NCBI RefSeq assembly: GCF_014699005.1
Contig: NZ_JACWZY010000003.1
Location: forward strand, 248,001-312,000
Origin: Spirosoma profusum
Lineage (GTDB): Bacteria; Bacteroidota; Bacteroidia; Cytophagales; Spirosomataceae
DNA length: 64,000 nt
Direction of reading: 5' to 3'
The notes beneath the pieces were generated by a model. The model was not told where the DNA came from. It worked only from the letters and a program-made list of their open reading frames with translations, and did not search any database. Shown in pieces: positions 3,550 to 22,068 of the stretch (positions within the stretch are counted from its first letter, which is position 1; every line of letters begins with the position of its first letter). The translations under genes were made by a program, and so were the position numbers.

Positions 3550-3569
3550 CGTCTCATCGGGTGTCGCGG
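3550..3569 (+). repeat. 20-mer late-region element, copy 1
   Basis: Sequence CGTCTCATCGGGTGTCGCGG. It begins nine bases after the stop of the 2957 gene. A CACCTTCG box occupies positions 21-28 after the 20-mer and the next start codon (ATG 3602) follows exactly 32 nt after it. Identical in all 20 bases to four other copies; flanking bases differ. Confidence 0.9.
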
Positions 3570-3601
3570 AATCAGGCAGCGCCCGTTGCCACCTTCGTTT
3601 C

Positions 3602-4087
3602 ATGACGGACCTGCTCTTCGCCGGTGGTAACAATCCAGCCGGTCACTATCTCATCCGGTGCGTGCCGGTAATCGGGGTGCAAAGCATGCCCGAGCCGGCC
3701 GCCGGTGGTCCGATGGTAGTCAATGGTCCGCCCACGTTTAAATCCGGGTATACCTGGATTAAACTGTATGGCACGGAAGGCACCAAAACCTACGATGAGC
3801 AGCAGCAGGAGGTTGACGATGGTGAGATCTGGAATCTGACCATTTCACTGTTTCTGCCGGGTGATTCAGCCCAGCAGCGTACAGCCCTGGCCCAAATGGT
3901 ACGCCACCGCTTCGTTGTCGAATGCCAGGACAATACCGGCACCTGGCGACGAGTGGGCACCAAAACCCAATCCTTGCAACTCACGTACCGTTTTGGCGTG
4001 GGTGGTCCCATGGGTTCACAGCGGGGAGCCACCCTTACCTTTCAGGGAACCGTGACCGCTCCTCCACCTTTAGTCACTGGTATTTAA
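3602..4087 (+). CDS. hypothetical virion protein
   Basis: A 161-residue protein, beta-rich, with no signal peptide, glycine/proline-rich at both ends. Its start codon lies 32 nt after copy 1 of the 20-mer, so it is the first gene of a late module. A central WNLTISLFLPGDSAQQRTAL segment followed by VRHRFVVECQDNTGTWRRVGT suggests a beta-sandwich structural protein, perhaps a tail or head-tail connector component. I cannot name the family. An intrinsic terminator (4116-4146) follows directly, so it appears to be a single-gene transcription unit. Confidence 0.5.
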   Translation: MTDLLFAGGNNPAGHYLIRCVPVIGVQSMPEPAAGGPMVVNGPPTFKSGYTWIKLYGTEGTKTYDEQQQEVDDGEIWNLTISLFLPGDSAQQRTALAQMVRHRFVVECQDNTGTWRRVGTKTQSLQLTYRFGVGGPMGSQRGATLTFQGTVTAPPPLVTGI

Positions 4088-4115
4088 GCATACATACACG
4101 TTACAGTTTGCCCAG

Positions 4116-4146
4116 ATCCCATCTGCTCTACGGATGGGATTTTTCT
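4116..4146 (+). terminator. intrinsic terminator
   Basis: Perfect 8-bp stem ATCCCATC (4116-4123) / GATGGGAT (4133-4140), 9-nt loop, followed by TTTTCTT. It ends the unit started at 3602. Confidence 0.8.
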
Positions 4147-4176
4147 TAAAAGTAAAGAACAGCCTACTTACTGACG

Positions 4177-4572
4177 ATGAAACCAATCAAAACCAAACCG
4201 ATGCTCTATGCCCATTATTTGGGATTGTTGCAGGAAAAAGCCCGCGAAATGGGTTACAATCTGGTATTGCATGGAAGTCTAAATAGGGACTGTGATTTGA
4301 TCGCTATACCGTGGGTTGACCAGCCCCAGCCGCATCTGGATTTGATACGTGCACTGGATTATATCCTGACAGGGCGGGGGGATGATGCCTACAAGGAGCC
4401 TGAGTATTACCTCTACAGCATTTTGCCCGGTGGCCGTCATTCCTACGTTATTAATATTTATCGGGGCGGCTATCGATCGGATGATAGTTACGTTGAAGAT
4501 CCTCAGTTCTATCTGGATATTTCAGTTACGCCACTCGTCGAACGTATCGTCTCATCGGGTGTCGCGGTGTAA
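4177..4572 (+). CDS. conserved phage protein of unknown function, 3' end formed by the 20-mer
   Basis: A 131-residue protein with LHGSLNRDCDLIAIPW (33-48), a motif found in a widespread family of small phage proteins whose function is unknown; the GS...RDCDLI arrangement resembles a minimal nucleotidyltransferase-like Gly-Ser...Asp-x-Asp pattern. The last residues (IVSSGVAV) are encoded by copy 2 of the 20-mer, read in frame through to the stop at 4570-4572. Either the original C-terminus was replaced by recombination at the repeat, or the element is tolerated as coding sequence. It lies between an upstream terminator and the repeat. Confidence 0.6.
   Translation: MKPIKTKPMLYAHYLGLLQEKAREMGYNLVLHGSLNRDCDLIAIPWVDQPQPHLDLIRALDYILTGRGDDAYKEPEYYLYSILPGGRHSYVINIYRGGYRSDDSYVEDPQFYLDISVTPLVERIVSSGVAV
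4548..4567 (+). repeat. 20-mer late-region element, copy 2 (orphan)
   Basis: Identical 20-mer, here inside the 3' end of the 4177-4572 gene. Unlike the other four copies it is not followed by the TTCG box at positions 25-28, nor by an ATG 32-33 nt downstream. Confidence 0.9.
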
Positions 4573-4675
4573 GGGTATCGATGCGGTTGTTTTGAGGTCA
4601 CTAAACAAAACAATTCCATCATGTAACGCCTAGCCGTATGCTGCCCTATTCTTAATCCTGACCGCCCTGACGCTT

Positions 4676-4942
4676 ATGTGGCTGGCCAACACGGACCATC
4701 CTACTCCCGCTGTCGATCACACGTACCGATCTCGTGAACAAGAATTGAATTGTGGCTACAATCACGTTGAAGGCTACCAACGCAAAACTATATTCCGATT
4801 CCTACGGGCTTATATTATTGCGTTCCGACGTCGTTTAAGCCATGCCAGACAATTCGTACAGGCAGAGCTACAGATTCCTCTCCTGCTCATTCGTCAGGTA
4901 CTGGCCGGCCTATTGTTTGGCCGGGGCCTGCTGCACAGTTAA
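4676..4942 (+). CDS. putative small membrane protein, 5' end possibly degenerate
   Basis: An 88-residue frame from ATG 4676. Just upstream, in the same frame after a TAG at 4631, the sequence would encode AALFLILTALTLMWLANT, a good membrane helix, but no usual start codon is present. At 4621 an ATG is followed immediately by TAA, and a single-base shift after it would join into the helix. The arrangement suggests a small membrane protein whose 5' end has been damaged. The remaining part has basic segments and a hydrophobic stretch near the C-terminus. It sits between copies 2 and 3 of the 20-mer. Not assignable; may be a pseudogene. Confidence 0.3.
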   Translation: MWLANTDHPTPAVDHTYRSREQELNCGYNHVEGYQRKTIFRFLRAYIIAFRRRLSHARQFVQAELQIPLLLIRQVLAGLLFGRGLLHS

Positions 4943-4971
4943 CCCCTTTCTATCCACCCAGTTGCTTCCCT

Positions 4972-5005
4972 AACGAATCCGGTCACATTGGTGACCGGAT
5001 TCGTT
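4972..5005 (+). terminator. strong hairpin before 20-mer copy 3
   Basis: Perfect 15-bp inverted repeat AACGAATCCGGTCAC (4972-4986) / GTGACCGGATTCGTT (4991-5005) with a 4-nt loop, then GTTTAAAAG. It lies nine bases before copy 3 of the 20-mer and probably ends upstream transcription. Confidence 0.65.
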
Positions 5006-5014
5006 GTTTAAAAG

Positions 5015-5034
5015 CGTCTCATCGGGTGTCGCGG
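5015..5034 (+). repeat. 20-mer late-region element, copy 3
   Basis: Identical 20-mer. CTACTTCG occupies positions 21-28 after it and ATG 5067 follows exactly 32 nt after it. Confidence 0.9.
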
Positions 5035-5066
5035 CTGAGCAGGAGCCCCTAAAGCTACTTCGTGCC

Positions 5067-6551
5067 ATGAACCGGAACTTTCGTACCCTCTCCGCCTTTA
5101 TGCGCAGCATGTGGCTCATCGAGCCCACGTTCGCCGAAGCGCACATCCCCTTCATTCAGAGCTACATCGCCGGTGATTTTAATCCCAAAGCCTTTCAGGA
5201 CGATGAAGACGAAGAAAACGAAGAATCTGGCGACGATCGGCTTAGCCGTGTCGGCTATGCTGTCAGCAGTTCAGCCAGCGCCTCTGAGCGTTCCCAAACG
5301 CGCTACGGTTTAGAAGATCCCGAGCTGCCCGATGATTCCATTTTCGTACTGGATATTCGGGGTGCAATCTTCAAGGAAAGCACCTGCTGCTCCATCGGTA
5401 CCGAAGAGTACTGCCAGTTATTGAATCTGGCCTACGCCCACGAAAAAATTATTGGCATTGTCTGCCTGATCGATAGTCCCGGGGGCCAGTTAAGTGGCAC
5501 CCCGACGCTGTACGACGCCATCCGTAACCCCCAGAAACCGACTGTATCGGTAATCAACGAAGGGTTGATGGCGTCGGCAGCGTACTGGCTGGCCTGCGGC
5601 TCCGACGATATCTACGCCACCCAGAAAAGCGACCAGGTCGGATCGATCGGCGTGTACGTGCAATTCGAAGATAATCGGGAGCGCAAAAAGCAGCTGGGTA
5701 TCACGACCCATACGATTTATTCCGATCGCTCTTCGGAGAAGAACCGGCCGTTCCGCGAAGCGCTGGACGGTAACCCTGCTCTGTTACGGGAAGATCTCAA
5801 CCAGGCCGCTGATCTGTTCCGGGAAGCCGTTGAGCAGGGCCGTGGTGCCCGCATCAAACCCGTCAAAAAAGGCGGTCCTGATGTATTTCAGGGCGGTCTG
5901 TTCTACGCCAGTCAGGCCATTGAGCTGGGGCTGATCGACGGGTTTGGCAACCTCGACACGGCCGTCAACCGGGTGGTTGAACTGCACCAGGCCCGTCAGC
6001 AGGAATCTCCTACAACGCCCCTGAATGGTGGCTTTGCCATTACCGAAACACCCGCTGCAGTGGAAACTGTGGCACCGGCTGCACCGGCGCCAGTAGCTGC
6101 TACCGAACCCGAACAACCAGCCGAAGAAATCACCCAACCGGTGGCCGCTATCGATGCTGATCCCCAACCTACGACAACTCAAACCCCAACTAAATCCATG
6201 GCCATTTTTGGATATGTGCAACTGGCTGCGCTGGCAGCTATCAAAGGCACAGCCGCTGAGGCAGTTACTGAAGAACAAACGAATGCCATCAACGCTGAAT
6301 TGGCGTCTGGAGGCTTCAACGTACACGTCATCAGTCAGGCTGACTTTGCTGAAGTGCAAAACCTGCAGGCGCAGCTGACCACCGCTAACGGCACTATCGC
6401 CGAGAAGGACAAAGAAATCGCTCGCCTGGGTAAACAACCCGGTGCCTTCGGTTCGACGGTCGAAAAGACGGAAGAAACGATCACCCCGACGCCGGAAGCA
6501 GCGATCAGCGAAACCGATGCTGAACTGAAGCGGCTGAAAGGCAACGCCTAA
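5067..6551 (+). CDS. S49-family prohead protease with fused scaffold-like C-terminus
   Basis: A 494-residue protein. I chose ATG 5067 because it sits at the conserved 32-nt distance from the 20-mer; an in-frame TTG at 5004 would put the 20-mer inside the gene. The protease domain (about 85-315) shows VCLIDSPGGQ (oxyanion region), MASAAYW with the likely catalytic Ser (about S170), GSIGVY, a lysine in SSEKNRPF that fits the SppA general base, and a final LGLIDGFGN. An Ala/Pro/Glu-rich linker (about 320-375) leads to a C-terminal acidic coiled coil (about 378-494). This matches capsid protease-scaffold fusions that cleave themselves and the capsid precursor. An internal ATG at 6198 could give the scaffold part alone. 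Confidence 0.85.
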   Translation: MNRNFRTLSAFMRSMWLIEPTFAEAHIPFIQSYIAGDFNPKAFQDDEDEENEESGDDRLSRVGYAVSSSASASERSQTRYGLEDPELPDDSIFVLDIRGAIFKESTCCSIGTEEYCQLLNLAYAHEKIIGIVCLIDSPGGQLSGTPTLYDAIRNPQKPTVSVINEGLMASAAYWLACGSDDIYATQKSDQVGSIGVYVQFEDNRERKKQLGITTHTIYSDRSSEKNRPFREALDGNPALLREDLNQAADLFREAVEQGRGARIKPVKKGGPDVFQGGLFYASQAIELGLIDGFGNLDTAVNRVVELHQARQQESPTTPLNGGFAITETPAAVETVAPAAPAPVAATEPEQPAEEITQPVAAIDADPQPTTTQTPTKSMAIFGYVQLAALAAIKGTAAEAVTEEQTNAINAELASGGFNVHVISQADFAEVQNLQAQLTTANGTIAEKDKEIARLGKQPGAFGSTVEKTEETITPTPEAAISETDAELKRLKGNA

Positions 6552-6571
6552 CCCCTCGCCATTCCCATTAC

Positions 6572-6601
6572 TGACCTGCCTGATCACTATCAGGCAGGTC
6601 A
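6572..6601 (+). terminator. hairpin between protease and capsid genes
   Basis: Perfect 13-bp stem TGACCTGCCTGAT (6572-6584) / ATCAGGCAGGTCA (6589-6601) with loop CACT. Only TTT follows, so it may act as a weak terminator or mRNA stabiliser rather than a full stop. Confidence 0.6.
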
Positions 6602-6643
6602 TTTACCCAAACCGTATCTAAACCCTTAACCGCTTCTATCACA

Positions 6644-7729
6644 GTGGCAACACCGCAAAACGACATCACCGCGATTAACAACTATGCGGGTCAGTACGAG
6701 AAAAAAATTCGTACCTCAATCTTCACCGATCTGGACATCGCCAATGACCTGGACCTGATCACCAACCTGACAGCTCCGCGCATCCTGCCTAAATACAAGG
6801 CCAACGATGGCTTTCGTCCCTATGATGTGGACGTAGTGGATCCCGATGGTCAGGCGGGCACGTTCTCCAAGCGGACGATCGTACCGCATACCGGTATGAA
6901 AATCCTGCGGGTTATTCCCGAGGAGCTCCGAAAAACGTATCTCTCTGAACAACTGAAAGCCAACGCCAAGGATTATCCAGGAGGCTTTGCTGAGTATTTC
7001 TGGGAAGAGCAGATAAAAAAACAACGTTCTGAAATCAACGATAATGCGTATCTGGGTGTCAACTCAGAGGACGTTTTGGCGTTTGATTCGGGCGCTACGT
7101 ATGCCGTTGGCGATCGCGTGGTGTTTAACAAATCGTACTATTCCTGCGTGGTCGTTACGACGGCTGGTCAGTCGCCCCAGACCCACCCGGCCAAATGGCT
7201 CAAAGTGAACGCAGGTAGTATCGCCAAAGGGCCAGGTGTTATCATTAAGGAGGTTTACTCCTCGCTGCCATCCCGCAATAAAATTGCGACGGGTACGATG
7301 GACGCCACCAACACCTTCGATAAGGTTACGCAGTTCTACCTGAATCTGCCCGAAGCGATTCGTAACGTAAATGGTATTATTCGCTGCTCACGCGGAGTGT
7401 ATGATAATTACAACATGAGCGCCCTGGCCAAATTTACCAACGGTACCAGCTTCCTGGACGTGGTGAACGGGGCCGGTAAGATCTTTGGTAAAGCCATCAT
7501 CGGTTCGGATGGTAAGTGGATCCTGCAACCCGCCAGCTGGATGTCGGGCAGCAAACGTTTGGTCGTCGACATCGATAAAAACTTAAAGATGGGCACCGAT
7601 CTGACGAGCGACTTTACCGGTATCGGGCCGCTTATTCCGTTTGTGCACGGCTACACCTGCAAAATGCAGGCGATTCTAGCCTACGAAATTGCTGATCTGG
7701 ACGTCCTATTCGTCAACGATCAGGAATAG
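6644..7729 (+). CDS. major capsid protein with inserted carbohydrate-binding-like domain
   Basis: A 361-residue protein directly after the protease-scaffold gene, the standard position for the major capsid protein. It starts with GTG at 6644 after a TAAACCCTTAACC leader. The N- and C-terminal parts fit a Bacteroidota capsid protein (N-terminal NNYAGQYEKKI, later PEAIRNVNGIIRCSRGVYDNY). Residues about 149-188 (DSGATYAVGDRVVFN, then SYYSCVV, AGQSP and PAKWLKV) match the small chitin-binding fold of CBM5/12 type and interrupt the capsid sequence, so they probably form a surface-exposed loop domain. Strong hairpins before (6572-6601) and after (7734-7782) isolate its mRNA, as expected for a highly expressed product. 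Confidence 0.75.
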   Translation: MATPQNDITAINNYAGQYEKKIRTSIFTDLDIANDLDLITNLTAPRILPKYKANDGFRPYDVDVVDPDGQAGTFSKRTIVPHTGMKILRVIPEELRKTYLSEQLKANAKDYPGGFAEYFWEEQIKKQRSEINDNAYLGVNSEDVLAFDSGATYAVGDRVVFNKSYYSCVVVTTAGQSPQTHPAKWLKVNAGSIAKGPGVIIKEVYSSLPSRNKIATGTMDATNTFDKVTQFYLNLPEAIRNVNGIIRCSRGVYDNYNMSALAKFTNGTSFLDVVNGAGKIFGKAIIGSDGKWILQPASWMSGSKRLVVDIDKNLKMGTDLTSDFTGIGPLIPFVHGYTCKMQAILAYEIADLDVLFVNDQE

Positions 7730-7733
7730 TAGA

Positions 7734-7782
7734 TGCAGGTTGGGGGTGATGCTGATCAAATCAGTATCACCCCCAACCTGCA
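7734..7782 (+). terminator. long hairpin after capsid gene
   Basis: A 23-bp stem (7734-7756 with 7760-7782) with a single G-U pair and a 3-nt loop. It begins four bases after the capsid stop and lacks a T tract; it probably protects the capsid mRNA 3' end or reduces downstream expression. Confidence 0.65.
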
Positions 7783-7864
7783 CAATATCACTCATTTATT
7801 TTCTAACGACAACCCTCGGCAGCAATACCTTCCCGGTGATTCTGCCTAAATCCTTAACCCGATC

Positions 7865-8317
7865 ATGGCGGACTTAACCGACGATCAAAAAACGATTGAA
7901 AAGCTGAAAGGCGACCTGGCCACTGTAACCAAGGATCGTGATACAATTAAGGGCCAGCTCGATGCTGTGATCCTGGCTAAAACAGCCGCTGAAGCCAAAG
8001 TCACGGAAGTGACGACCGAGTTGACCAAAACCAAAGGTGAGCTGACTAAAGCGCAGGGTGACTTAACAAAAGCGAACACCGACCTGACGACTGCTGAAAC
8101 TGTTGTATTGGATCTGAAAAAACAACTGGCTGAGAAAGAAGCGGGATCGCCTGCGCTGCCAACGGTGAAAGTGGGTGGCAAAACCTACGAACTGACGTCG
8201 GATTTCTTCTACAATGGCGAAGAGGTAACCTTCAAAAGCCTGGAAGAAAATAAGGCACTGGCTGAGGAGCTGGTGAAAGAAGGCATCGGTAACCTGCGCC
8301 TGGTGGCTAAAAAATAG
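7865..8317 (+). CDS. coiled-coil virion protein
   Basis: A 150-residue protein. Residues 8-95 are a near-continuous heptad coiled coil with internal near-repeats (TELTKTKGELTKAQGDLTKA). A compact C-terminal domain (about 105-148, KVGGKTYELTSDFFYNGEEV) follows. Position directly after the capsid gene suggests a head decoration, head-tail joining or assembly protein. It follows a TAAATCCTTAACC leader similar to that of the capsid gene. No family name can be given. Confidence 0.5.
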   Translation: MADLTDDQKTIEKLKGDLATVTKDRDTIKGQLDAVILAKTAAEAKVTEVTTELTKTKGELTKAQGDLTKANTDLTTAETVVLDLKKQLAEKEAGSPALPTVKVGGKTYELTSDFFYNGEEVTFKSLEENKALAEELVKEGIGNLRLVAKK

Positions 8318-8347
8318 CTGACCCTACGTAACGTAATCCTCCACACC

Positions 8348-8379
8348 GGCAGTGACCGACATCGATGTCGGTCACTGCC
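8348..8379. promoter_or_regulatory. 32-bp perfect palindrome before probable tail tube gene
   Basis: GGCAGTGACCGACATC (8348-8363) is followed immediately by its exact reverse complement (8364-8379). It ends 23 nt before ATG 8403 and has no T tract, so it could be an RNA processing or stability hairpin or a protein-binding site as well as a weak terminator. Confidence 0.6.
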
Positions 8380-8402
8380 CTAATCCTTCCACCTGCCTTA
8401 TC

Positions 8403-8939
8403 ATGGCTACTTACAAAGATTTGCTCGGGCCGGATGGCACCGAAAACAACATGGGAGGAACCCGCCAGTTCTTCCACTTTGCCCCTCACGCGGATATCCT
8501 CACGTTTGGTGCACCGGCTGCTTCGCCGTCGGATCCGGATGATAAGTATAATATCACCATCGCCCACGTAATGAAAAGCGGCAAGAAGTTCAATACGATG
8601 TATTGTACCATCGATACGTCGGAATTAGAGCTTGGCTCCAACGGCGAAATTGATGGGAAGAGCTTCAAACCGACGTTCAAATTCTTCTATCCGGGTTCGA
8701 AAAAGGATGCGATTGCCTTTGCCAACCAGTGCAAAAACGACAAGTTCGTCTTCCTGGTACCACTATCCGATGGCACGATTGTGCAGATCGGCGGTCAGTT
8801 CTTTGTGGCCTACATCACCCCGAATTTCAAAACGGGTGCTACCAGTGGCCGGGGTAAAGGCTGGGAATTCGAGGTGATGGCTTATCAGCCTGAATTCATG
8901 GTCTATACGGCTGCTGTTCCGCTGACACCTGCTGCCTAA
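8403..8939 (+). CDS. probable major tail (tube) protein
   Basis: A 178-residue beta-rich protein. The ATG at 8403 is preferred to an in-frame start at 8352 that lies inside the 32-bp palindrome. It has MATYKDLLGPDG at the N-terminus and a central KPTFKFFYPGSKKDAIAFANQC segment, with no signal peptide. Size, beta content and its place two genes after the capsid fit a siphovirus tail tube subunit, and the strong isolated hairpin in front fits a highly expressed virion protein. Head-tail connector is the alternative. Confidence 0.45.
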   Translation: MATYKDLLGPDGTENNMGGTRQFFHFAPHADILTFGAPAASPSDPDDKYNITIAHVMKSGKKFNTMYCTIDTSELELGSNGEIDGKSFKPTFKFFYPGSKKDAIAFANQCKNDKFVFLVPLSDGTIVQIGGQFFVAYITPNFKTGATSGRGKGWEFEVMAYQPEFMVYTAAVPLTPAA

Positions 8940-8940
8940 G

Positions 8941-9156
8941 ATGCCCAAAGCTAAGACCGGCGAGTCGGCTGCTCCAGGAGTGGCCGCTCGTCCGTTCGAA
9001 GTGGTTAATCTGGAGTTTTCCGACCACATGCCGATTGGCTTTCAGGATCGAACGTATGACCTGGCTAATCTCTCGAACGAGGATGCTGCCTATCTATTGG
9101 GCTTCCCGGATGAATTTCCGTACCTGAAAGCCCTGCCAACCGCTACTAACGACTAA
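8941..9156 (+). CDS. small hypothetical virion-operon protein
   Basis: A 71-residue protein starting one base after the preceding stop, so probably translated with it. It contains VNLEFSDHMPIGFQDRTYDLANLSNEDAAYLLGFPDEFPYLK, ending in an acidic-aromatic segment. A strong intrinsic terminator follows. Not assignable; could be a tail assembly partner of the 8403 product. Confidence 0.5.
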   Translation: MPKAKTGESAAPGVAARPFEVVNLEFSDHMPIGFQDRTYDLANLSNEDAAYLLGFPDEFPYLKALPTATND

Positions 9157-9189
9157 ACCAGGCAACTGGGATTTTGTGAATAAACGGCA

Positions 9190-9220
9190 AAGAAGCCCGG
9201 TTTTGCCGGGCTTCTTTTGT
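9190..9220 (+). terminator. intrinsic terminator
   Basis: Perfect 11-bp stem AAGAAGCCCGG (9190-9200) / CCGGGCTTCTT (9206-9216) with loop TTTTG and a following TTGTTTT. It ends the protease-capsid-tail tube block. Confidence 0.85.
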
Positions 9221-9234
9221 TTTCCACGCTACGT

Positions 9235-9870
9235 ATGACCCATTCCATTACTCAACTCCAGGCCTGGCTCGATCGGCCGGTGTATACCCAGGGCGTCGTC
9301 TTGTACGAATCCCTGCTGGGTGAAGGCTTTCTGTTGACCCTGTTCAAAACGGGTGACGATGCCTACAACCGGGGCAAGTTGCAGGATGCCCTCGAAGCTC
9401 ATCTGGCCCAACTACTCCAGCAGCAGGCCGATCAGAAAGCCGCTTATCCCGATACGTTAAAATCACAGCTCAGCAGCGCTGGTCAGCTGATGGATGAACG
9501 GACACTGTTGAAGGAGCGCCTGCGCGTTCTGTTTAATAGTGGTGTGGGCCAATCCGATGACGCCAAAGCGCTGGCCTTCCGGATCCTGGGCATCACCGAT
9601 CAGCTGGATGCCATTTATGGAGAACAGCATTTCTTTGAGCAGCACGGCTTTCTGCCCGATGCAGCCTCGGCCCAGCTCCCTGAATCGGATACACTGGCGG
9701 ATCTGCTCAAACGACGCAACTCGGTACGTACCTACGTCACCAAATATCAGAAAGAGCTGGCCAATACCTTCGAGCCCGCCCGACGCAAGAAAGTCACCAG
9801 ACGGCTGGAGGGCTTTCTCACTGAACTCCAGCAGCTCAACACCCAAATCGCTCTCCTCAACCCCTCATGA
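9235..9870 (+). CDS. hypothetical protein preceding terminase genes
   Basis: A 211-residue, almost wholly helical protein (Q, L, K and E rich) with likely coiled coils around 45-100 and 160-208. ATG 9235 is used; an upstream in-frame start would fall within the terminator. Its TGA overlaps the ATG of the next gene (ATGA), so it is coupled to the small terminase. No domain recognised. It could be an assembly or packaging accessory protein. Confidence 0.55.
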   Translation: MTHSITQLQAWLDRPVYTQGVVLYESLLGEGFLLTLFKTGDDAYNRGKLQDALEAHLAQLLQQQADQKAAYPDTLKSQLSSAGQLMDERTLLKERLRVLFNSGVGQSDDAKALAFRILGITDQLDAIYGEQHFFEQHGFLPDAASAQLPESDTLADLLKRRNSVRTYVTKYQKELANTFEPARRKKVTRRLEGFLTELQQLNTQIALLNPS

Positions 9871-12228: not shown

Positions 12229-12620
12229 CCTGCCCAGCTGAGCGTGGTCAACATCGTTGTTACCCATGGAGCCTGCTTGATCAAGCAGGCTCTTTTCATA
12301 TATGGTGCTGTCCCCCTTTTTGCAATTGCATTTTTGCTCAGTGCGTGCCTGGGGGTGAACAGACGGAAACGACTGCGTTTTTCACTTTTTTCAACGATTA
12401 ACTACCTGATTTATAGACTATATTGTGATTTCTGAATGTCAGAAACGTTTAAAAAAGAGAAACGGGCTGAATGTGTCACCCATAGCACCCATTTGGCAAT
12501 CAGGACTTTAGGTGTAAATTTTGCAATTCTGATCCGTTTGCCCCCATTCGTATACCACTCGACTTTTGACAAAATCGACCCTTCTCCGGTCTTTTTTACC
12601 TGTTTTCTCGTAACTGTACA
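12229..12620. other. gene-free stretch after large terminase
   Basis: About 390 nt. It holds the palindromic terminator at 12270-12291; the rest is relatively AT-rich and I see no convincing gene. Short frames here do not show coding character. Confidence 0.5.
12270..12297. terminator. palindromic terminator after terminase
   Basis: Perfect 22-nt palindrome, AGCCTGCTTGA followed by TCAAGCAGGCT (12270-12291), then CTTTTC. It ends plus-strand transcription from the terminase. Confidence 0.7.
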
Positions 12621-15800: not shown

Positions 15801-15953
15801 GATATAGCCACCATCGGTTGTCTGCCGAATGCAATAAGCTCTCTCCTCAACACTCCCACCCAAGCACTTTTGCCACTCAATGGTTGGGACTTGGGCAATT
15901 ATAAAAGTTGGTAGTAGTAAAAAATAAAGAAGTGTACAGATAGAACGTAACAT
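12861..15953 (-). CDS. secreted SBBP-repeat / alpha-beta hydrolase protein (cargo gene)
   Basis: A 1030-residue secreted protein with a signal peptide (residues 1-20, ending in IIAQ). Residues about 20-440 hold eight SBBP-type repeats of about 50-60 residues, each with GGYIVAG..S.DGDVSG and W.VKL...G.IQWQKCLGG. A lipase-like alpha/beta hydrolase domain follows (about 575-820): a VHGLW oxyanion motif and GHSMGG nucleophile elbow. The C-terminal part (about 880-1030) looks like an adhesion or cell-surface module and ends without a type IX sorting domain I can recognise. It is transcribed against the late genes and sits between terminase and portal, so it is probably a lysogenic-conversion gene. 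Codon use is more AT-rich than that of its phage neighbours. Confidence 0.7.
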   Translation of the reverse strand: MLRSICTLLYFLLLPTFIIAQVPTIEWQKCLGGSVEERAYCIRQTTDGGYIVAGYTNSDEGDGDVTGNYDDLNSWIVKLNAAGGIQWQTCLGSNDYFDFITSIQQTTDGGYIVAGHTDDDKHATATNDVYSDGWVIKLGQGGVIQWQKFLGGSDFEEFQSIEQTTDGGYIVAGFTRSNDGDVSGNHGTNVENTFYPSRDIWVVKLSSSGNIQWQKCLGGTGSESAEFIQQTLDGGYIVGGSAYSTDGDVSGKHGFGYSDGWVVKLSPAGSIQWQKCLGGSADDEILSIQQTFDGGYITSGFTGSSDGDVSGKHGGNDNWVVRLSSSGAIQWQKCLGGSLGDRGYSIRQTTDGGYIVAGYTSSSNGDVSGYNGGTDCWIVKLNSSGNILWQKCLGGTNYETFYSIQQTTDGGYIATGYTGSSNRDVSGGHGSNDIWVVKLTGGPPPLTLQHFHQILNNSAFSRRELLQTAIDLDPQKSLNVCADGSSASIFKMYGGGIDYSQAVFKPSGSDVSQTGSFTVITQSRDSIIARYNHPDYIQGPAKSIGQLVRLFATPTSTSPIPLTSFIITVYRAPVFMVHGLWSDASCYSTTKSTLLSTGQYEPRFLHVVDYHETANRSFSVNVPKIPEQIDLLFYLLEREGISAGKVDYIGHSMGGILGRLYLQGPTSRDDVHKLITVNTPHSGSPMPSLLTSTQYPYTNYNACVIINKALGPFVGGACDGGSVDDLRVNSAAIRVDLNGATRTNNKVPAHAIVTTELTQSDTFGKRSKAKIFELVLDLYNVTPNALFQDDHDLVVAFNSQLGGMSGSCKSIFYNQMHIGSVGNPEVINKLIALLNSPTSTSFCTSGFNPITINPPVINTNLQAKTKAMTGSLHINSPSRGQYVANGQIITVSISASDVVNVRTYVGYNSDTLYSARSNGMPGSYTFVADGRFPGEKPVIVSGKASDGTIVTDTTHFYVIGACHSIASGNWSNAATWSCGHEPSIYEAVTINSGHTVTISTPTAQAYRLRYTGGKLIYTTGNNKVLVKGGS

Positions 15954-16093
15954 AGAATCAGCGTTTTGTGGATAGATAATTTACCAGTTGTAAAGTACTA
16001 AGTAGGTCAAATTTAGTTGTTTAGCTTGACATTTTGGGCGACTGAGCATAAAATCAAGCACAGCCAAAAAATATTTTTATACTGCTTGGCTGG

Positions 16094-16113
16094 CGTCTCA
16101 TCGGGTGTCGCGG
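16094..16113 (+). repeat. 20-mer late-region element, copy 4
   Basis: Identical 20-mer. CACTTTCG occupies positions 21-28 after it and ATG 16147 follows 33 nt after it. It lies just after the cargo gene's upstream region and starts the portal module. Confidence 0.9.
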
Positions 16114-16146
16114 CCCGACTGCCCACCGGCCAGCACTTTCGCGCCT

Positions 16147-16407
16147 ATGATCAAGGTGGGGGAGATGCTCCAGACAATGCGACAAACCGACGCCCGGGGC
16201 AGAAACCGGGTGTTCGACGTTGTCATTTGTACAGCGAATCACCAGCGCAATACCGGTGGTAAATTCCTCGAACTTCGCAAAGTCAGGCTGCTGACCAAAC
16301 AGCGCCAGTCGCTACGTTTTCTGCTGGTTCAGGCTCCGGGCGTCAAAGACCCGATTCGGCTGCACCTCGATCTGATTCTCTATTTCAACAATCAGGAGGT
16401 GCTATAA
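16147..16407 (+). CDS. small hypothetical head protein
   Basis: An 86-residue protein. ATG 16147 is chosen because it keeps the conserved distance from the 20-mer. The stop overlaps the portal start by one base (TAATG), so the two are coupled. It has a basic central part and ends RLHLDLILYFNNQEVL. Function not identifiable; possibly a portal partner. Confidence 0.55.
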   Translation: MIKVGEMLQTMRQTDARGRNRVFDVVICTANHQRNTGGKFLELRKVRLLTKQRQSLRFLLVQAPGVKDPIRLHLDLILYFNNQEVL

Positions 16408-17822
16408 TGGGCGGAAAGCGCAGCACAGTCCCTTATTACGAGGGTGAATTCTTCGACACAGCCATTCTGGCCAGTGCTGGCATCAGTATTTCGCTGGAAA
16501 CCGATCGCCCGGCTCAGTCACGCTCAGGCGTTCCCAAATCAGGACTTCAGCCAGGTACTACGCCCTCCGTGGCAGTTCCGGATGAGTCGCTCTACGGCCC
16601 CACCATTGATGACGTAATGCCCTGGGGCGATGGTAATGATTTCCCCCAACGGATGGTCGATCTCTACAATCAGGATCCGATTATCCCCCAGACGCTGGGC
16701 AAACTGGCCACCATGATCGTGGGGGGCGGTATTCTCATCGTCGAGGAAGATATCGACGAAAAAGGCCAGAAAGTGTTTCGGGCACCGTCGGGTGATCCGG
16801 CCCTGCTGGCCGAAATCCGGGCGTTCATCGATCACCCCAAATTCTCGCTTTACATGCGGGAAATGGCCAGTGACGTCATTACGTTTTACAACGGCTGGCC
16901 CGAGATGATCATCAGTAAGGATCGCTCGATCATAACCAGTCTGGAACCCCTTAACGGGGAAGAGTGCCGCTGGTGCCGGATGACATCAAAAGGGGAACTA
17001 CCCTACATCTACCTGAGCGCCAACTGGCCCCGCTACACCCCGCTGCTGACGAAGAAAATCAACGTCCTGGATCCCTACCGGCCTGATGCGGTCGAATGGC
17101 TCCGGGAAGCCTCGTTTCATAACTGCGTGTATCCGATCCGTTTTCCAACGCCGGGCAAACGGTATTATTCGCTCCCTCATCACTACTCGATCGTTGAATC
17201 GGGCTGGCTGGACGTCCACCTGGCGATTCCCCAGTTCAAAAAGTTTGTGATGAAAAACCAGATGACGCTCAAATATCACTGGAAAGTCGATAAGGAGTAC
17301 TGGGCACAGACCTATGGGGAGAAATATACCAAAGCGACTCCCGAAGGTAAACGGGCCATCAAGGTCAAGTGGCTTAAGGACATGAACAAAACCCTGACCG
17401 ACGTCAGCCGGGCGGGTAATTCGATCATCACCGACGTCACCTGGGACCAGGTGAACAAAGTCTACAAGGATCACATCACGGTGACCCCTATCACCGACGC
17501 CATGATTGACGGCAAATACATTGAGGATAACCTGGAAGCAGCCGCCAATATCTTTTATGCGTTTGGCGTCGACCCGAGTCAGGTTGGTTTTGCCGGTGGC
17601 GATAAAATGGGCGGCCAATCCGGCGGCTCTGATAAACGCGAAGCCTACCTGATCGCCCTGCAGATGCTGCGTCCCTTCCGGGACATGCTGCTGGAGCCAC
17701 TTCGGTTCGTCTCGATCTATAATGGCTGGAAAGCGGCCATGCCTAAACTGGCCTTTGCCTTTAACGACACCATTCTCACCACCCTCGATACCGGTGCCGG
17801 TACCGCCAAAAAACTGAGCTAA
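16407..17822 (+). CDS. phage portal protein
   Basis: A 471-residue protein with the pattern of Bacteroidota siphovirus portals: an N-terminal variable part, GDGNDFPQRMVDLYNQDPI (about 72-90), WPEMIISKD (about 165), and a C-terminal FGVDPSQVGFAGGDKMGGQSG with following ALQMLRPFRDMLLEPL. The portal forms the dodecameric DNA gate of the capsid vertex. It is coupled to the 16147 gene and followed one base later by the next gene. Length is in the family range. Confidence 0.75.
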   Translation: MGGKRSTVPYYEGEFFDTAILASAGISISLETDRPAQSRSGVPKSGLQPGTTPSVAVPDESLYGPTIDDVMPWGDGNDFPQRMVDLYNQDPIIPQTLGKLATMIVGGGILIVEEDIDEKGQKVFRAPSGDPALLAEIRAFIDHPKFSLYMREMASDVITFYNGWPEMIISKDRSIITSLEPLNGEECRWCRMTSKGELPYIYLSANWPRYTPLLTKKINVLDPYRPDAVEWLREASFHNCVYPIRFPTPGKRYYSLPHHYSIVESGWLDVHLAIPQFKKFVMKNQMTLKYHWKVDKEYWAQTYGEKYTKATPEGKRAIKVKWLKDMNKTLTDVSRAGNSIITDVTWDQVNKVYKDHITVTPITDAMIDGKYIEDNLEAAANIFYAFGVDPSQVGFAGGDKMGGQSGGSDKREAYLIALQMLRPFRDMLLEPLRFVSIYNGWKAAMPKLAFAFNDTILTTLDTGAGTAKKLS

Positions 17823-17823
17823 T

Positions 17824-18768
17824 ATGAAAAGTCTGTTTGACGGTACCACAGATGAGCTGCGCCGGCTGGTTCCGGGCATCGTGGCCAATTTTACCCTAAA
17901 ACCAGCGCTGAAAAGTCAGCTCGATCAATCCGCAGAATCGTTGCTGCCCCGTTTTGTCGGCACTACGATCGCTGATCAGATCACCGAGAGCAGTGAAAGT
18001 TCCGACGCTACGTTGAAAGGGGCGTTTGGACTGGCCCAGCAGGCCATGGCCAAACTGGGTTTTGCAGATTATTTACCCTTTGCTGAAGTGCAGATCGGTG
18101 ATGACGGCATTACCGTTACGGCCGTAGACGGACGCCGGGCTGCTTTCGACTACCAGACCCAGAAACTCGATCGGAGCCTGCGCGAAACGGGCTGGCAGAA
18201 ACTTGATGAACTGCTGCAGCTCATTGCCGCCAACGATGCCAAATTTCCGGGATGGAATACAGCTCCCTATTATCTGGAGCATCAGCAGGCGCTGTTCAAA
18301 ACAGCGCAGGATTTTAGCAAGTCATACCCCATTCAGAATCGCTGGCTCACCTTCTGGGCACTGCGCCCGTTTATTCAGGCGGCTGAGGATGATTTCGGTA
18401 CGTTGAATTTGGATCGTATCGATGCGTTGCCCAACGCGGTGACCGATGAGCAGAAAGCGCCCCTCAAACGGAAGTTATTCCGGGCCATTGCCTACGAGGC
18501 TGTATTATCGGCCATTCCCAACCTGAGTGTCGAGCTGTCGGGTAACAACGTGCAGGTGAATTACGCCAGCCAATATGGCGGTAACGCTACGTATTACACC
18601 CCACCGGGTAAAGACCTGCTGGAGTGGTGGCAGCAGAACCTGCGTACGCAGGCTGATACGTTCTGGCAGGGCTTTGAAAACGCCCTGGCTGCCCTGCTAC
18701 CGACATCCCCATCGGATGACGAAGGGGGTGATCTGTTGGGCGAAGAATCATCCCTGGTCTACATCTAA
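17824..18768 (+). CDS. conserved prophage protein, DUF6712-like
   Basis: A 314-residue soluble protein starting one base after the portal stop. It has a helical N-terminal part, a central YPIQNRWLTFWALRPFIQ, and a C-terminal polar tail. Arrangement right after the portal and overall character recall the DUF6712 proteins of Bacteroidota prophages, whose role is unknown. Likely a head or connector component. I recall the family loosely and cannot confirm it without a profile search. Confidence 0.45.
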   Translation: MKSLFDGTTDELRRLVPGIVANFTLKPALKSQLDQSAESLLPRFVGTTIADQITESSESSDATLKGAFGLAQQAMAKLGFADYLPFAEVQIGDDGITVTAVDGRRAAFDYQTQKLDRSLRETGWQKLDELLQLIAANDAKFPGWNTAPYYLEHQQALFKTAQDFSKSYPIQNRWLTFWALRPFIQAAEDDFGTLNLDRIDALPNAVTDEQKAPLKRKLFRAIAYEAVLSAIPNLSVELSGNNVQVNYASQYGGNATYYTPPGKDLLEWWQQNLRTQADTFWQGFENALAALLPTSPSDDEGGDLLGEESSLVYI

Positions 18769-18781
18769 CCCTACTACTGCT

Positions 18782-19084
18782 ATGAATGACCCTTATAAAG
18801 AAAACGCTATCCTATCAGGAGTAGCGCTGCTCTCCGCCCTGATGCTTCTGCTGGTGATGCAACTGCTCCAGGGCTGCGGTCCTAAAAAGGCAAATCCTCC
18901 GGCCGTTACGACCATTTACGCCGATACGACCCGCACCAGACTGGTGCACCGGGCCGAAGCCTCCAGCGCTGCCATCACCATCATTCACGAACGCACTCAA
19001 AAAACCGTAACTTCTTATGAACGTAGTGTCAAAAAATACGATTCGATCCGGGTGGAACTCCCTGAAATCGTACCTGGTCAGTAG
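18782..19084 (+). CDS. membrane or lipoprotein, spanin-like
   Basis: A 100-residue protein: short polar N-terminus, hydrophobic segment (about 10-30, AILSGVALLSALMLLLVMQ), then LLQGC resembling a lipobox, then a periplasmic part. Its 3' end overlaps the next gene by 68 nt in another frame. Overlapping small envelope genes next to an endolysin are typical of spanin pairs that fuse inner and outer membranes at lysis. Assignment is by architecture only. Confidence 0.5.
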   Translation: MNDPYKENAILSGVALLSALMLLLVMQLLQGCGPKKANPPAVTTIYADTTRTRLVHRAEASSAAITIIHERTQKTVTSYERSVKKYDSIRVELPEIVPGQ

Positions 19085-19667
19085 CCGACTCGGTCAGGCC
19101 GTCGCCTCGCCCAACTTTCTAAAAGTGGTTGTGACGCTGAGCCTGCTGCTGCAGCTGGTCCAGTGTACCCACTGCACCGGCCAATCCGTGCAGGCCATGG
19201 TTAAACAGCAGCCGTTCCCCTACGCCACCGGTGTGGCCATGGATACAGCCACCTATCAGGCTGTCAGAGCTAAATTACAGGCGGCTGATCAACTGAAACG
19301 CGACGCCCGACGGGCGATCGATTCCCTGTTACATGAAGTAAACCTGACCTACAAGGGGCTCCTTGATCAGCAGGCTCTGCGCCAGCATGAATCGACCCGT
19401 TTGAACGAAGCCTTGACACGGATGCAGCTTATCGATACGCAGCTCAGTCAGGCCACTACAAAGCTGAAACAGGCCGAGCAGATCCGCGATGCTGTGCTGC
19501 AGACACTGCCCCGACGCATTCGTAAACAGCTGACCACAGCTTCGCCGGACGTAGTGGCCGAACAGGTGGCTACGTACATAAAAACCCAGCAGCGACGCAA
19601 GTGGAGCTGGGCGAGCGTGAGCCTGACGGGTGGATTTGTGCTGGGCGTTTTAACCGCACTGTTCTGA
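19017..19667 (+). CDS. coiled-coil membrane protein, lysis cassette
   Basis: A 216-residue protein from ATG 19017. It has a hydrophobic segment near 34-50 (LKVVVTLSLLLQLVQC, followed by cysteines), a long coiled coil (about 80-165) and a C-terminal membrane helix (about 196-214, ASVSLTGGFVLGVLTALF). A protein anchored at both ends with a periplasmic coiled coil fits an inner-membrane spanin partner or a signal-anchor component. The stop overlaps the endolysin start (TGATG). The start could be further in. Confidence 0.45.
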   Translation: MNVVSKNTIRSGWNSLKSYLVSSRLGQAVASPNFLKVVVTLSLLLQLVQCTHCTGQSVQAMVKQQPFPYATGVAMDTATYQAVRAKLQAADQLKRDARRAIDSLLHEVNLTYKGLLDQQALRQHESTRLNEALTRMQLIDTQLSQATTKLKQAEQIRDAVLQTLPRRIRKQLTTASPDVVAEQVATYIKTQQRRKWSWASVSLTGGFVLGVLTALF

Positions 19668-20245
19668 TGGTACCGGCACGTCTTACCTCCGCTGACTATC
19701 AGCAGGCGGCTGCGCTGCTCCGCACCGGTGTCGCCGAGATCAAGGCCGTTCGCGATGTGGAGAGTGCGGGCTACGGATTTCTGCCCGATGGCCGCATTCT
19801 GATCCGTTTTGAAGGCCACCGGTTTCGGAAAGAAACGGGACGGATTTACGACAAAAGCCATCCAACGTTGTCGCACCCCTACATGCCCAACTGCCCTCAT
19901 AACAAGGGGCCCGTACATGACTACGCCCGGCTGAAAATCGCCATGGCGCTGAATCCAACGGCCGCTCTTTTATCCACCTCCTGGGGACTGTTTCAGGTGA
20001 TGGGTGACGAGTTCTGGCGGTGTGGCTTCAAGGATGTACACACCTTCGTCGATGATCTTAAAAAAGGCGAAAAGCAGCATTTACTGGCTGCCTCAAAGTT
20101 CATCATCAGCAAGAAACTCGACGATGAGCTGCGCGATCACGAATGGGACGGTTTTGCGTATGGTTACAACGGTGAACACTACCGCGATAACAAATATCAA
20201 CTCAAACTGGCCCTGCGCTTCGCTTTTCACGTTAAAAACCCCTAA
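19667..20245 (+). CDS. endolysin, N-acetylmuramidase
   Basis: A 192-residue protein, start at ATG 19667 overlapping the preceding stop. It matches the phage N-acetylmuramidase family (DUF3380/PF11860): RDVESAGYGFLP with a probable catalytic Glu (about E32), FEGHRF (about 48-53), and TSWGLFQVMG (about 104-113). It cleaves the glycan backbone of peptidoglycan for host lysis. No signal peptide, so a holin is required; the next gene is a candidate. It is full length for the domain and has no extra cell-wall binding module. Confidence 0.85.
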   Translation: MVPARLTSADYQQAAALLRTGVAEIKAVRDVESAGYGFLPDGRILIRFEGHRFRKETGRIYDKSHPTLSHPYMPNCPHNKGPVHDYARLKIAMALNPTAALLSTSWGLFQVMGDEFWRCGFKDVHTFVDDLKKGEKQHLLAASKFIISKKLDDELRDHEWDGFAYGYNGEHYRDNKYQLKLALRFAFHVKNP

Positions 20246-20277
20246 TCATTTTCACGCTTGTAAACCCGTAACCCCCC

Positions 20278-20613
20278 ATGGACCTGACCACCATTGGCAA
20301 TGATTTATTGAAATTCTCCCCGCTGGCCTTCGTGCTGGCCGTCGCCGTGTACGTACTCTGGAAAAAACTGGAGGTAAAGGATACCGATCTGAAGGACACC
20401 ATGAAAGCCCACGATGCTGACCGGAAGGAAACGCAGGAAAAGCTCACCCAGGTGCTGGCGCAGAATTCGGCTTCGCACGTGCAGTTATCGGAATCGGTTA
20501 ATAATTTGACCAAGGCTACCAACGAATCCCGTTCTGAAATCGGTGGCCGGTTATCAGCCCTGGAAAGTCAGACAAAACTCAATCGATCTGTCCGCAAACA
20601 GGCAATAGGCTAA
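20278..20613 (+). CDS. holin-like protein with coiled coil
   Basis: A 111-residue protein with one membrane helix (about 14-29, SPLAFVLAVAVYVLW) and a cytoplasmic-looking coiled coil (about 35-105). This shape matches XhlA/BhlA-type holins. It follows the muramidase and precedes the next gene by no spacer. The leader has GTAAACCCGTAACC, similar to those before the capsid and 7865 genes. Function inferred from shape and place. Confidence 0.55.
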   Translation: MDLTTIGNDLLKFSPLAFVLAVAVYVLWKKLEVKDTDLKDTMKAHDADRKETQEKLTQVLAQNSASHVQLSESVNNLTKATNESRSEIGGRLSALESQTKLNRSVRKQAIG

Positions 20614-21501
20614 ATGACCGACTTTCAGTTGCGCATCGGCAAACGAACGTATCCCTTCAGTGGCCCCTCGGCCTGGTCGGAGCTGACAGCCCACCAGGCC
20701 GTGAGTCTCTGGCGATTTCGGAGCCTGGTGAGTGATCAGCCCGCCAGCCTGTTTCCAGTACTCATGCTGCTGTATGGCATGGGCAGACGGCAGCTGCGCT
20801 GGCTGTTTGACGCCCGTTTTCTTCAGCGAAAACGAGTAAGGGCGGATCAGCAAACGGAATGTCTGGCGCTGGGTCAGGCCCTGATCGATACGGTGAACTG
20901 GGTGGGGGAAACCCTGCCCACGGATGCGTTTGTCGTGCCGCATTTCCGGCTGTTTGACTTTCAGTTCGGCAGCTGGCGCGTGTTACGTAGTCGTATTTTC
21001 CACCGCAGGCGGTATTATTCACCGGCTGAAGGGCTGGGTAACTTGACGTTCGGCGAATTTATGTACGCTGATCAGGCCCATAAGGTGGGCAATCTGGCCC
21101 GACTATCGGCTATTCTCTACCGGAGGACCGGTAAACTGGCCTCTCTGGATGATGTTCGTCAGCCGTTTGACTCACGCCGGCTGGATCGTGATCAACATTA
21201 TTTTCAGCAACTGGATCCGGCCCTGTTACACCTGATCGGCGCTCAGTATGAAGCCTGTCTGCGGTCGCTGCAGCGTCATTTTTCACTCGTTTTTTCCGTT
21301 GCTGACGAAGCGACGGCCAAATCCAAAGGGACTGATTCGGCCGGCTGGCTGGATGTAGCCATTAATATGGCCAAACTCGACCCAACCAAAGTGCCCCAGA
21401 TCGAGCAGCAGAATCTGTATCTGGTCTTGAAAGTACTCAACGAAGGCATTCGCCAGGCCGAGGAATTGGAAGAGCAACTGGATAAAATGAAGCGTAAATA
21501 A
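20614..21501 (+). CDS. conserved hypothetical prophage protein
   Basis: A 295-residue basic protein starting immediately after the holin-like gene. It contains PVLMLLYGMGRRQLRWLFDARFL and LGNLTFGEFMYADQAHK. Helical C-terminus with a short coiled coil (about 265-295). It has no recognised domain. Position between the lysis cassette and the first tail gene suggests a head-tail connector or tail assembly role. Confidence 0.45.
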   Translation: MTDFQLRIGKRTYPFSGPSAWSELTAHQAVSLWRFRSLVSDQPASLFPVLMLLYGMGRRQLRWLFDARFLQRKRVRADQQTECLALGQALIDTVNWVGETLPTDAFVVPHFRLFDFQFGSWRVLRSRIFHRRRYYSPAEGLGNLTFGEFMYADQAHKVGNLARLSAILYRRTGKLASLDDVRQPFDSRRLDRDQHYFQQLDPALLHLIGAQYEACLRSLQRHFSLVFSVADEATAKSKGTDSAGWLDVAINMAKLDPTKVPQIEQQNLYLVLKVLNEGIRQAEELEEQLDKMKRK

Positions 21502-21504
21502 CTC

Positions 21505-22008
21505 ATGACTGAGCAGCAGTATATCGACTATTTTGAGGGGCTGGCCACTCGCCACAAAGCCATTCTGCACAACGCCGAAACGCACAAATCCTTTTTTGTG
21601 GTGCACGACGATAACCTGACGGAGGTAGAAACGGCCGTGCGCAATAGCTTGAGTCTGCCTGCACTTTTGCTCGATCAGTACTTCGACGAGGAAGATACCG
21701 AGCACGATAACAACCGGCTCCGGGTGCTGGGTGGGCTGAGCATTATTTGTAAAACCGAAGCCGGTAATACCCAAAGTTTTCGGGAAGCCCGTCAGGAAGC
21801 CCGTCGGATTGCACGGAGGATTCTCAACAAAGTGCGAAAGGATTGCCGATACGGGGGTGCCCTCTTCGATCAGAACGTCATGATCTCGTTTCAGGCCCAG
21901 GGCGAACCCACGCCCATTATCGGGGGATCGGCAACCGGCTGGGGCTATGCCTTTACCTTACTGAAGCCCATGACCGTCGCCATCGATGGCGATGACTGGC
22001 TGGAGTAG
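21505..22008 (+). CDS. hypothetical protein, possible tail terminator or connector
   Basis: A 167-residue protein three bases after the previous stop. N-terminal and C-terminal halves alternate beta and helix, with FREARQEARRIARRILNKVRKDCR (helix) in the middle and QNVMISFQAQGEP later. That pattern is seen in phage neck and tail terminator proteins, but no specific motif is present. It is the last gene before copy 5 of the 20-mer. Confidence 0.4.
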   Translation: MTEQQYIDYFEGLATRHKAILHNAETHKSFFVVHDDNLTEVETAVRNSLSLPALLLDQYFDEEDTEHDNNRLRVLGGLSIICKTEAGNTQSFREARQEARRIARRILNKVRKDCRYGGALFDQNVMISFQAQGEPTPIIGGSATGWGYAFTLLKPMTVAIDGDDWLE

Positions 22009-22015
22009 GCTGGTT

Positions 22016-22035
22016 CGTCTCATCGGGTGTCGCGG
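22016..22035 (+). repeat. 20-mer late-region element, copy 5
   Basis: Identical 20-mer beginning eight bases after the stop of the 21505 gene. CATTTTCG occupies positions 21-28 after it and ATG 22069 follows 33 nt after it. Confidence 0.9.
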
Positions 22036-22068
22036 CCATGCTGACCCCTGGCGGGCATTTTCGCCCCC

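Follow-up and report, generated by a model that had tools for sequence, protein, structure and literature searches.

The repeated element and the gene blocks behind it

The window analysed here is a stretch of 64,000 nucleotides (nt) from the genome of Spirosoma profusum (8.7 Mb in 81 contigs, G000), namely C33:248001-312000, and it holds the late half of a prophage whose early half lies upstream of the window. Within it the 20-mer CGTCTCATCGGGTGTCGCGG was found in five copies, at 3550, 4548, 5015, 16094 and 22016, all on the plus strand and without a mismatch. No sixth copy was detected in the window at up to three mismatches, and none of 100 dinucleotide-shuffled versions of the window gave a match. 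The five positions and their common strand agreed with a first-pass annotation of the sequence, which had read the repeats as late promoters with a -7 box.

Behind copies 1, 3, 4 and 5 a box with TTCG follows at offset 21-28 from the 20-mer, and the start codons at 3602, 5067, 16147 and 22069 come shortly after it, as stated in the same annotation. The annotation had confined the box to these four copies; copy 2 was found to have one as well, TGTTTTGA at the standard offset or TTGTTTTG one base earlier. The box of copy 2 is the left arm of a palindrome, TTGTTTTG-N11-CAAAACAA (window 4587-4613), and the first ATG there that opens at least 50 codons is located at 4676, 80 nt past the box. The starts at 16147 and 22069 are backed by homologues in genome G004, where both proteins align from residue 1. 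The genes behind copies 1 and 2 are smaller and have no assigned function.

In the rest of the host genome four matches to the 20-mer with two or three mismatches were detected, on C4, on C11 and twice on C25. Three of the four were inspected; they are mutually similar stretches with neither box nor ATG at the offsets seen in the five copies.

Table 1. Elements, boxes and genes in the window. Positions count from the first nucleotide of the window; ORF, open reading frame; aa, amino acids.
Feature	Position	Strand	Remark
Candidate late regulator, 194 aa	2957..3541	+	ends 9 nt ahead of element copy 1; no Pfam or PHROG family
Putative late-promoter upstream element, copy 1	3550..3569	+	predicted -52 to -33
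-7-like box CACCTTCG, copy 1	3590..3597	+	ATG 3602, 4 nt past box
First gene after copy 1, 161 aa	3602..4087	+	protein cluster shared with 8352-8939
Element copy 2	4548..4567	+	within 3' end of mechanically called ORF 4177-4572; predicted promoter with leader
Box, copy 2	4587..4595	+	TGTTTTGA at standard offset; TTGTTTTG 1 base earlier
ORF, 88 aa	4676..4942	+	first ORF of at least 50 codons after copy 2
Element copy 3	5015..5034	+	inverted repeat directly before (by eye)
Box CTACTTCG, copy 3	5055..5062	+	ATG 5067
Head maturation protease (S49)	5067..6551	+	first gene of head block, after copy 3
Element copy 4	16094..16113	+	exact repeat
Box CACTTTCG, copy 4	16134..16141	+	ATG 16147, 5 nt past box
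Small protein, 86 aa	16147..16407	+	first gene of portal block, after copy 4
Portal protein	16407..17822	+	weak PHROG match; 29% identity to annotated portal of Leef_1
Endolysin	19601-20245		downstream of portal block start
Element copy 5	22016..22035	+	exact repeat
Box CATTTTCG, copy 5	22056..22063	+	ATG 22069
Large protein, 1594 aa	22069..26853	+	first gene of tape-measure block, after copy 5
Tape measure protein	35762-39472		in block after copy 5

Recurrence in related prophages

The exact 20-mer was absent from all viral contigs searched. Among 36 genomes of the genus, the own genome included, only G004 also matched it at up to two mismatches; there a 2-mismatch form occurs twice, ahead of the homologues of the genes at 16147 and 22069, and each time TTCG and ATG follow. 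When 222 genomes of the family were searched with the portal protein, 64 had relatives. From 34 loci, 20 further stretches and three stretches of G004 a comparison set of 32 regions was obtained, which includes the region of the window; the distant relatives L082-L085 stand outside this comparison, and early-region DNA was covered for only part of the 32 regions.

When the regions were searched for exact repeats, many were found to carry a repeated element of their own, at two corresponding places that lie about 6 kb from each other, for example GGCCGTCACCGAGGTTGTCGCGG (G020a), GGTCGCCTGATGTCCTGTTTT (G170 and G174), GATTGATTGTTGTCCTGT (G014) and CAGTTCTGACCTGTTT (G146). Sites were picked for their repeated element, without regard to the box. 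After alignment of 63 sites from 16 prophages on a TGTC-like core, the distance from core to box was 24 bases, box positions 5 and 6 were T in 61 and 63 sites, respectively, and the majority form of the box was C-A-A-T-T-T-(C/T)-G. With two prophages added, the collection comprised 71 sites in 18 prophages, none of them on the minus strand, and TT was present at box positions 5-6 in 68. Beyond the element the 24-nt spacer showed no sequence conservation, and several sites overlap the 3' end of the gene before them.

The search of related prophages for element, box and ATG together had been suggested by the first-pass annotation, and on running it the arrangement recurred at the 71 sites with its 24-base spacing. 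As a shared signal, however, the 20-mer held only in part: the TGTC-like core and the spacing are general, whereas the 20-mer sequence itself is phage-specific.

Seven further regions (G112, G123, G130, G202, G201b, G208b and G218) each contained a pair of pattern matches, in six of them at both homologous places. Their boxes mostly start with TA, as in TAATTTTG, TAAGTTTG and TAGTTTCG. The pattern used for these seven regions was loose and gave scattered extra matches, some on the minus strand, which were taken for chance, and only pairs at homologous places were counted. In G083b, G191 and G198 the repeated elements lack TGTC and stand at a fixed offset from a box.

Where no ATG is close, the box is at some sites enclosed in a palindrome of up to 44 bp, of a different sequence each time; such palindromes were seen at window 4587-4613, at 14125 in the G151 prophage and at 30742 in the G170 prophage. 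The excess is small, with a box in a palindrome at six of 23 sites without a close ATG and at five of 48 sites of the leaderless type. A palindrome around the box is possibly an operator.

Distance between box and start codon

An ATG opening at least 50 codons was located exactly 4-5 nt past the box in 38 of the 71 sites, against a background of 1.1% (0.0112 per position in the same DNA). With distances of 3-8 nt admitted, 48 of the 71 sites had such a close ATG, and in the remaining 23 it was located 17-207 nt from the box. The first-pass annotation had described box and start codon as a fixed unit, and of this the box held in the relatives through its TT, but the ATG was more than 12 nt away in 23 of 71 sites. 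All 23 sites without a close ATG have kept the TT. This speaks for a role of the box in transcription rather than in translation.

The base before the ATG was a pyrimidine in all 38 close-spaced sites (C in 28, T in 10). At a transcription start site a purine is expected, with a pyrimidine before it. In Flavobacterium johnsoniae the -7 element TANNTTTG is described as extending from T-12 to G-5, which leaves 4 or 5 nt before the start (PMC6847099). If the A of an ATG 4 nt away is taken as +1, the phage boxes sit at -12 to -5, as in F. johnsoniae. Because the gap between box and ATG equals the distance between -7 element and start in that species, the mRNAs from copies 1, 3, 4 and 5 are probably leaderless.

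The promoters could also be real and start several bases off the ATG, which would give short leaders. The distance between box and start varies in bacteria, and the figure of 4-5 nt was obtained in another class of Bacteroidota. The gap of 4-5 nt together with the pyrimidine before the A in 38 of 38 sites, and the published Flavobacterium distance of 4 or 5 nt, speak against it, and we consider short leaders unlikely. Leaderless mRNAs, the preferred reading, begin with their first codon, and such messages are uncommon in this bacterial group: about 3.7% of the 5' untranslated regions of Bacteroides thetaiotaomicron are reported to be shorter than 10 nt (PMC7366714), and 87% of the leaders of F. 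johnsoniae are reported to be longer than 10 nt (PMC6847099). The paper on phage AR9 remarks that leaderless transcripts are frequent in phages (PMC5312081), so that for phages this property by itself is not new.

The box compared with host promoters

In 400 kb of G000 the upstream DNA of 200 genes with at least 60 nt upstream was scanned. The sequence TAnnTTTG was enriched (27 occurrences vs 12.7 in shuffled sequence and 11 on the reverse strand), whereas CAnnTTCG was not (3 vs 5.5 shuffled). Only two of the 27 host occurrences of TAnnTTTG were within 9 nt of an ATG. From these counts the phage boxes are off-consensus for the host and far closer to the start codon.

Sigma-ABfr promoters of Bacteroidota are described as having TTTG at -33 and TAnnTTTG at -7 (PMC6847099, PMC7366714). 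The phage sites resemble them in the type of box and in its distance from the predicted start. They differ in that TTTG is not conserved at the -33 place over the 63 aligned sites, where a phage-specific element is found instead; one group of sites has CTGTTTT at this place, as part of its own element. The boxes have also drifted from the -7 consensus, in the window to CACCTTCG, CTACTTCG, CACTTTCG, CATTTTCG and TTGTTTTG. Since the -33 element is absent, the sites were not classed as plain sigma-ABfr promoters; judged by its letters, the box would be a drifted or derived form of the Bacteroidota -7 element.

Named phages and metagenomic viruses

In Polaribacter phage Leef_1 (MT732473, Helgolandviridae) elements of the TGTCCTTTT type are located 24 nt before box-like sequences at several operons. 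Leef_1 shares with the prophage the homologous portal (29%), the 24-nt spacing and a homologue of the 194-aa candidate regulator, encoded in the corresponding map position between primase region and protease. This homologue, Leef1_39, aligned to the profile of the candidate family with an hhalign probability of 97. The Leef_1 element itself is TGTCCTTTTTT and not the Spirosoma-type 20-mer. A literature search by phage name gave no description of the Leef_1 element as a promoter.

Microcystis phage Mea-Yong924-1 (MZ447863, L168), the portal of which is related to this group, contains TTAAYACGCTGTCCTT three times, each with a box-like sequence at the 24-base distance and an ATG 3-5 nt on. The cyanobacterial host label of MZ447863 may be wrong. 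Two such places were found in Cellulophaga phage Ingeline_1 and about one each in Bacteroides phage BT-TP2 and a faecal phage; in two other phages that were checked no convincing place with element and box was seen.

For wider scans we used the pattern TGTCCTTT, 20 N, TANNTTTG, 4-5 N, ATG, a pattern of DNA alone that was written after the named phages had been seen, with controls that alter only the spacing or the ATG distance. In IMG/VR at least 120 stretches matched at the right spacing, compared with 12 and 24 when the box was shifted by -4 and +4, and 47 when the ATG was moved to 9-10. The IMG/VR loci are at most 15 kb long and some share one contig, so that not all are independent. Among the 120 loci listed, 65 encode relatives of the portal, adaptor, terminase-region, protease, endolysin or regulator proteins of the phage, and this was the case for none of 12 loci in the -4 control and one of 24 in the +4 control. 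For the ATG control the figure was 19 among 45 newly numbered loci, and for the loci listed from the genome_contigs scan it was 16 of 80. The latter scan gave at least 119 stretches, and among the 80 listed 62 carry Bacteroidota names and 18 do not. A frame of at least 50 codons is opened by 106 of the 123 pattern matches in the 120 listed IMG/VR loci.

A match to the candidate regulator was obtained for no locus of the -4 and +4 controls, for one of the ATG control and for two of the genome loci. In the six loci that contain both regulator and element, a TGTCC-type element is located downstream of the regulator frame at 29, 110, 116, 479, 505 and 1293 nt.

The candidate reader of the element

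Three such prophages are present in G004, two in G020 and two in G083, and each keeps its own element intact within the prophage. The elements of G004 a, b and c are related variants, those of G020 a and b share little beyond TGTC, and those of G083 a and b look unrelated. Host factors are common to all prophages of one host, so the specificity is expected to lie with the phage; this suggests a phage-encoded factor as the reader of the elements.

The 194-aa protein encoded directly ahead of copy 1 (Table 1) is a plausible candidate for this reader, judged by gene position and recurrence. In ORF clustering, 17 of 32 regions had a member of its family ahead of the first late site; the family ranking next by this measure reached nine. 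By profile the family was detected in 35 of 222 genomes, and its named homologues are from Spirosoma, Fibrivirga and Fibrella. Of the 19 prophages with both the gene and an assigned element, 13 have a site within 110 nt of the 3' end of the gene. For comparison, a site lies within 110 nt of 43 of 582 plus-strand ORF ends in the same regions (ORFs of at least 100 aa), and these 43 include 12 of the 13. Regulator matches in genomes without an assigned element (for example G112, G123, G130, G201, G202, G208, G145, G015 and the other contigs of G148) do not count among the 19.

The AlphaFold model of the protein was confident (mean pLDDT 86.9). Its only significant structural match in Foldseek was A0A8E5EBJ1, an uncharacterised protein of Polaribacter phage Leef_1 (157 aa, E 4e-5), which by its length is taken to be Leef1_39.

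In four of the 19 prophages a site starts 74-125 nt ahead of the candidate gene. A TGTCCTTTTTTTA element with a box was also observed ahead of a match to the candidate regulator in G216, G213 and G215 (L154, L156 and L161), which belong to another genus; these sites look as if the regulator activates itself. In G148, 12 matches to the candidate regulator were found, mostly on separate contigs and two with an internal stop, perhaps from several related prophages or phage-plasmids in one host.

Proposed mechanism and alternatives

As a whole, the data are best explained by five late promoters of the prophage that are used by the host polymerase together with a phage activator and give mostly leaderless mRNAs, and we regard this explanation as likely. 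For the promoters the case from sequence is strong, and the late-promoter reading of the first-pass annotation gained support from the recurrence of the arrangement in 18 prophages. We regard the sites as a genuine class of promoters that recurs among prophages; the family of the 194-aa protein is a new candidate for their activator. In the proposed mechanism the host RNA polymerase would recognise the weakened -7 box, and a phage-encoded DNA-binding protein at about -52 to -33 would replace the -33 contact. Each phage would have changed this protein and its 20-mer together and would in this way activate its own late operons. At copies 1, 3, 4 and 5 transcription would start on the A of the ATG or no more than one base from it, and copy 2 would give an mRNA with a leader. 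Less certain are the assumptions that the reader would be an activator rather than a sigma factor, that it would be the 194-aa protein, the last gene before the first late promoter, and that a site ahead of the regulator gene in some relatives would serve as positive feedback.

Several observations weigh against this explanation or parts of it. By spacing, 23 of the 71 sites are not leaderless, and exact TAnnTTTG is present in only one of the 71 boxes and the relaxed form [TC]AnnTT[TC]G in only 29. In four of the 32 regions (G015, G208 on C30, G145 and G201) the element was not found. The model of the candidate regulator had no significant match among solved structures in the PDB. In six of the 19 prophages the candidate is not beside a site, the match behind one of these (G167) being weak; near G004a no match to the candidate was detected, and the G148 element is located at a contig start. 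A Mantel test gave rho 0.77 for the candidate and 0.68-0.80 for eight structural or late proteins, so that the candidate is not singled out; partial correlations lean to the candidate (0.33-0.45 vs 0.20-0.36 the other way round) and come without a significance test. Only three of the 120 listed IMG/VR loci, each at most 15 kb long, had a regulator match. A sample of 395 genomes from across the phylum gave two occurrences of the strict pattern and three of the shifted control, which is no excess, and the strict TGTCCTTT-form pattern is rare across this sample.

The same promoters might have another phage reader, either a highly diverged sigma factor in contact with both 20-mer and box, for which the 194-aa protein itself might qualify, or a different early protein, for example the LytTR protein of the prophage. 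Since the box is changed from the host form, the sigma factor could be changed as well, and CAnnTTCG, unlike TAnnTTTG, is not enriched upstream of host genes; in addition one member of the candidate family had a weak PHROG match to a sigma factor (E 0.14). However, none of the 54 Sigma70_r2 matches in the genome is in the prophage part of C33; the two located on this contig precede copy 1 by over 30 kb, with the left edge of the prophage unmapped. The boxes of the relatives are also nearer to the host consensus. A LytTR domain is encoded in the prophage, but by coordinates LytTR matches are near only a few related prophages, and all 26 genomes searched have LytTR genes. We judged a different phage reader to be rather improbable.

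It was considered very unlikely that 20-mer and box are a translational or mRNA-structure element, that is, a leader RNA or a translation operator transcribed from upstream. Most sites are indeed near start codons (48 of 71 within 3-8 nt), but the TT of the box is kept where the start codon is 17-207 nt off, the spacer is unconserved and several sites overlap the preceding gene. Moreover, an Rfam search of window 3000-23000 gave five matches, none at gathering score, of which one overlaps an element (copy 3). Identical one-strand repeats ahead of late operons resemble promoters of a single-subunit RNA polymerase encoded by the phage, but this is the least probable alternative and hardly credible, because a separate host-type -7 box at a fixed distance is not known from such promoters and no polymerase domain was found in the early proteins scanned with Pfam (part of the early ORFs); PF00940 had no match in G000 and equally none in all 14 control genomes.

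The proposed arrangement has partial counterparts in other phages. The Mor protein of phage Mu is described as binding a dyad that spans -51 to -36, with its centre at -43.5, and that lies upstream of the -35 region and overlaps it (PMC4287176), and Mu C as acting at four late promoters (PMC4461284). The Mu promoter Pm is described as lacking a -35 hexamer, and the related activators Mor and C as not cross-activating (PMC4287176, PMC4461284). The likeness consists in several late operons with one activator site, here the five-fold 20-mer at predicted -52 to -33 with its centre at about -42.5. Mor and C sites are dyads; in the present elements direct repeats were scored, which were partial and had no common period; the sigma factor and the -7 box are different, the 24-nt spacing is strict and the start codon is at the predicted +1. 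In seven members of the candidate family no Pfam match to the Mor family was obtained at E <= 1, and because the candidate protein does not match that family we did not class the system as Mor/C. The middle promoters of phage T4 are host sigma promoters in which the MotA box stands in place of the -35 element, and in this respect the present sites are similar; the T4 box differs in being short, near -30 and dependent on the co-activator AsiA.

No description of Bacteroidota phage late promoters, or of leaderless late promoters of this form, was found in the open-access literature, outside of which most subscription journals fall. That the sites represent a late-promoter class of Bacteroidota phages throughout the phylum, we hold to be just on the probable side of even. 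In such a class the upstream half would be rewritten in each phage and read by a new activator family without recognised fold, the -7 half and the 24-nt spacing would be fixed, and the late mRNAs would be systematically leaderless, which is rare in the mapped hosts. It would offer a simple promoter code for this group of Bacteroidota phages and would put forward a so far uncharacterised family of proteins as the probable trigger of late expression. The rewritten elements, three different ones inside the G004 genome, would make up a naturally occurring collection of protein-DNA recognition pairs. Should the mRNAs prove leaderless, the phages would provide a natural system for leaderless translation in bacteria without Shine-Dalgarno signals.

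Other genes of the prophage

The early region of the prophage encodes a CI-like repressor with an S24 peptidase domain and a DnaG-type primase. It also contains a stand-alone LytTR DNA-binding domain protein at L017:15335-15679 (window -4665 to -4321) and a protein with a PAPS-reductase domain at L017:17198-18439. Between the head and portal blocks an ORF of 1030 aa is located on the minus strand (12861-15953); it has Pfam matches of the lipase/PGAP1 type and is possibly cargo.

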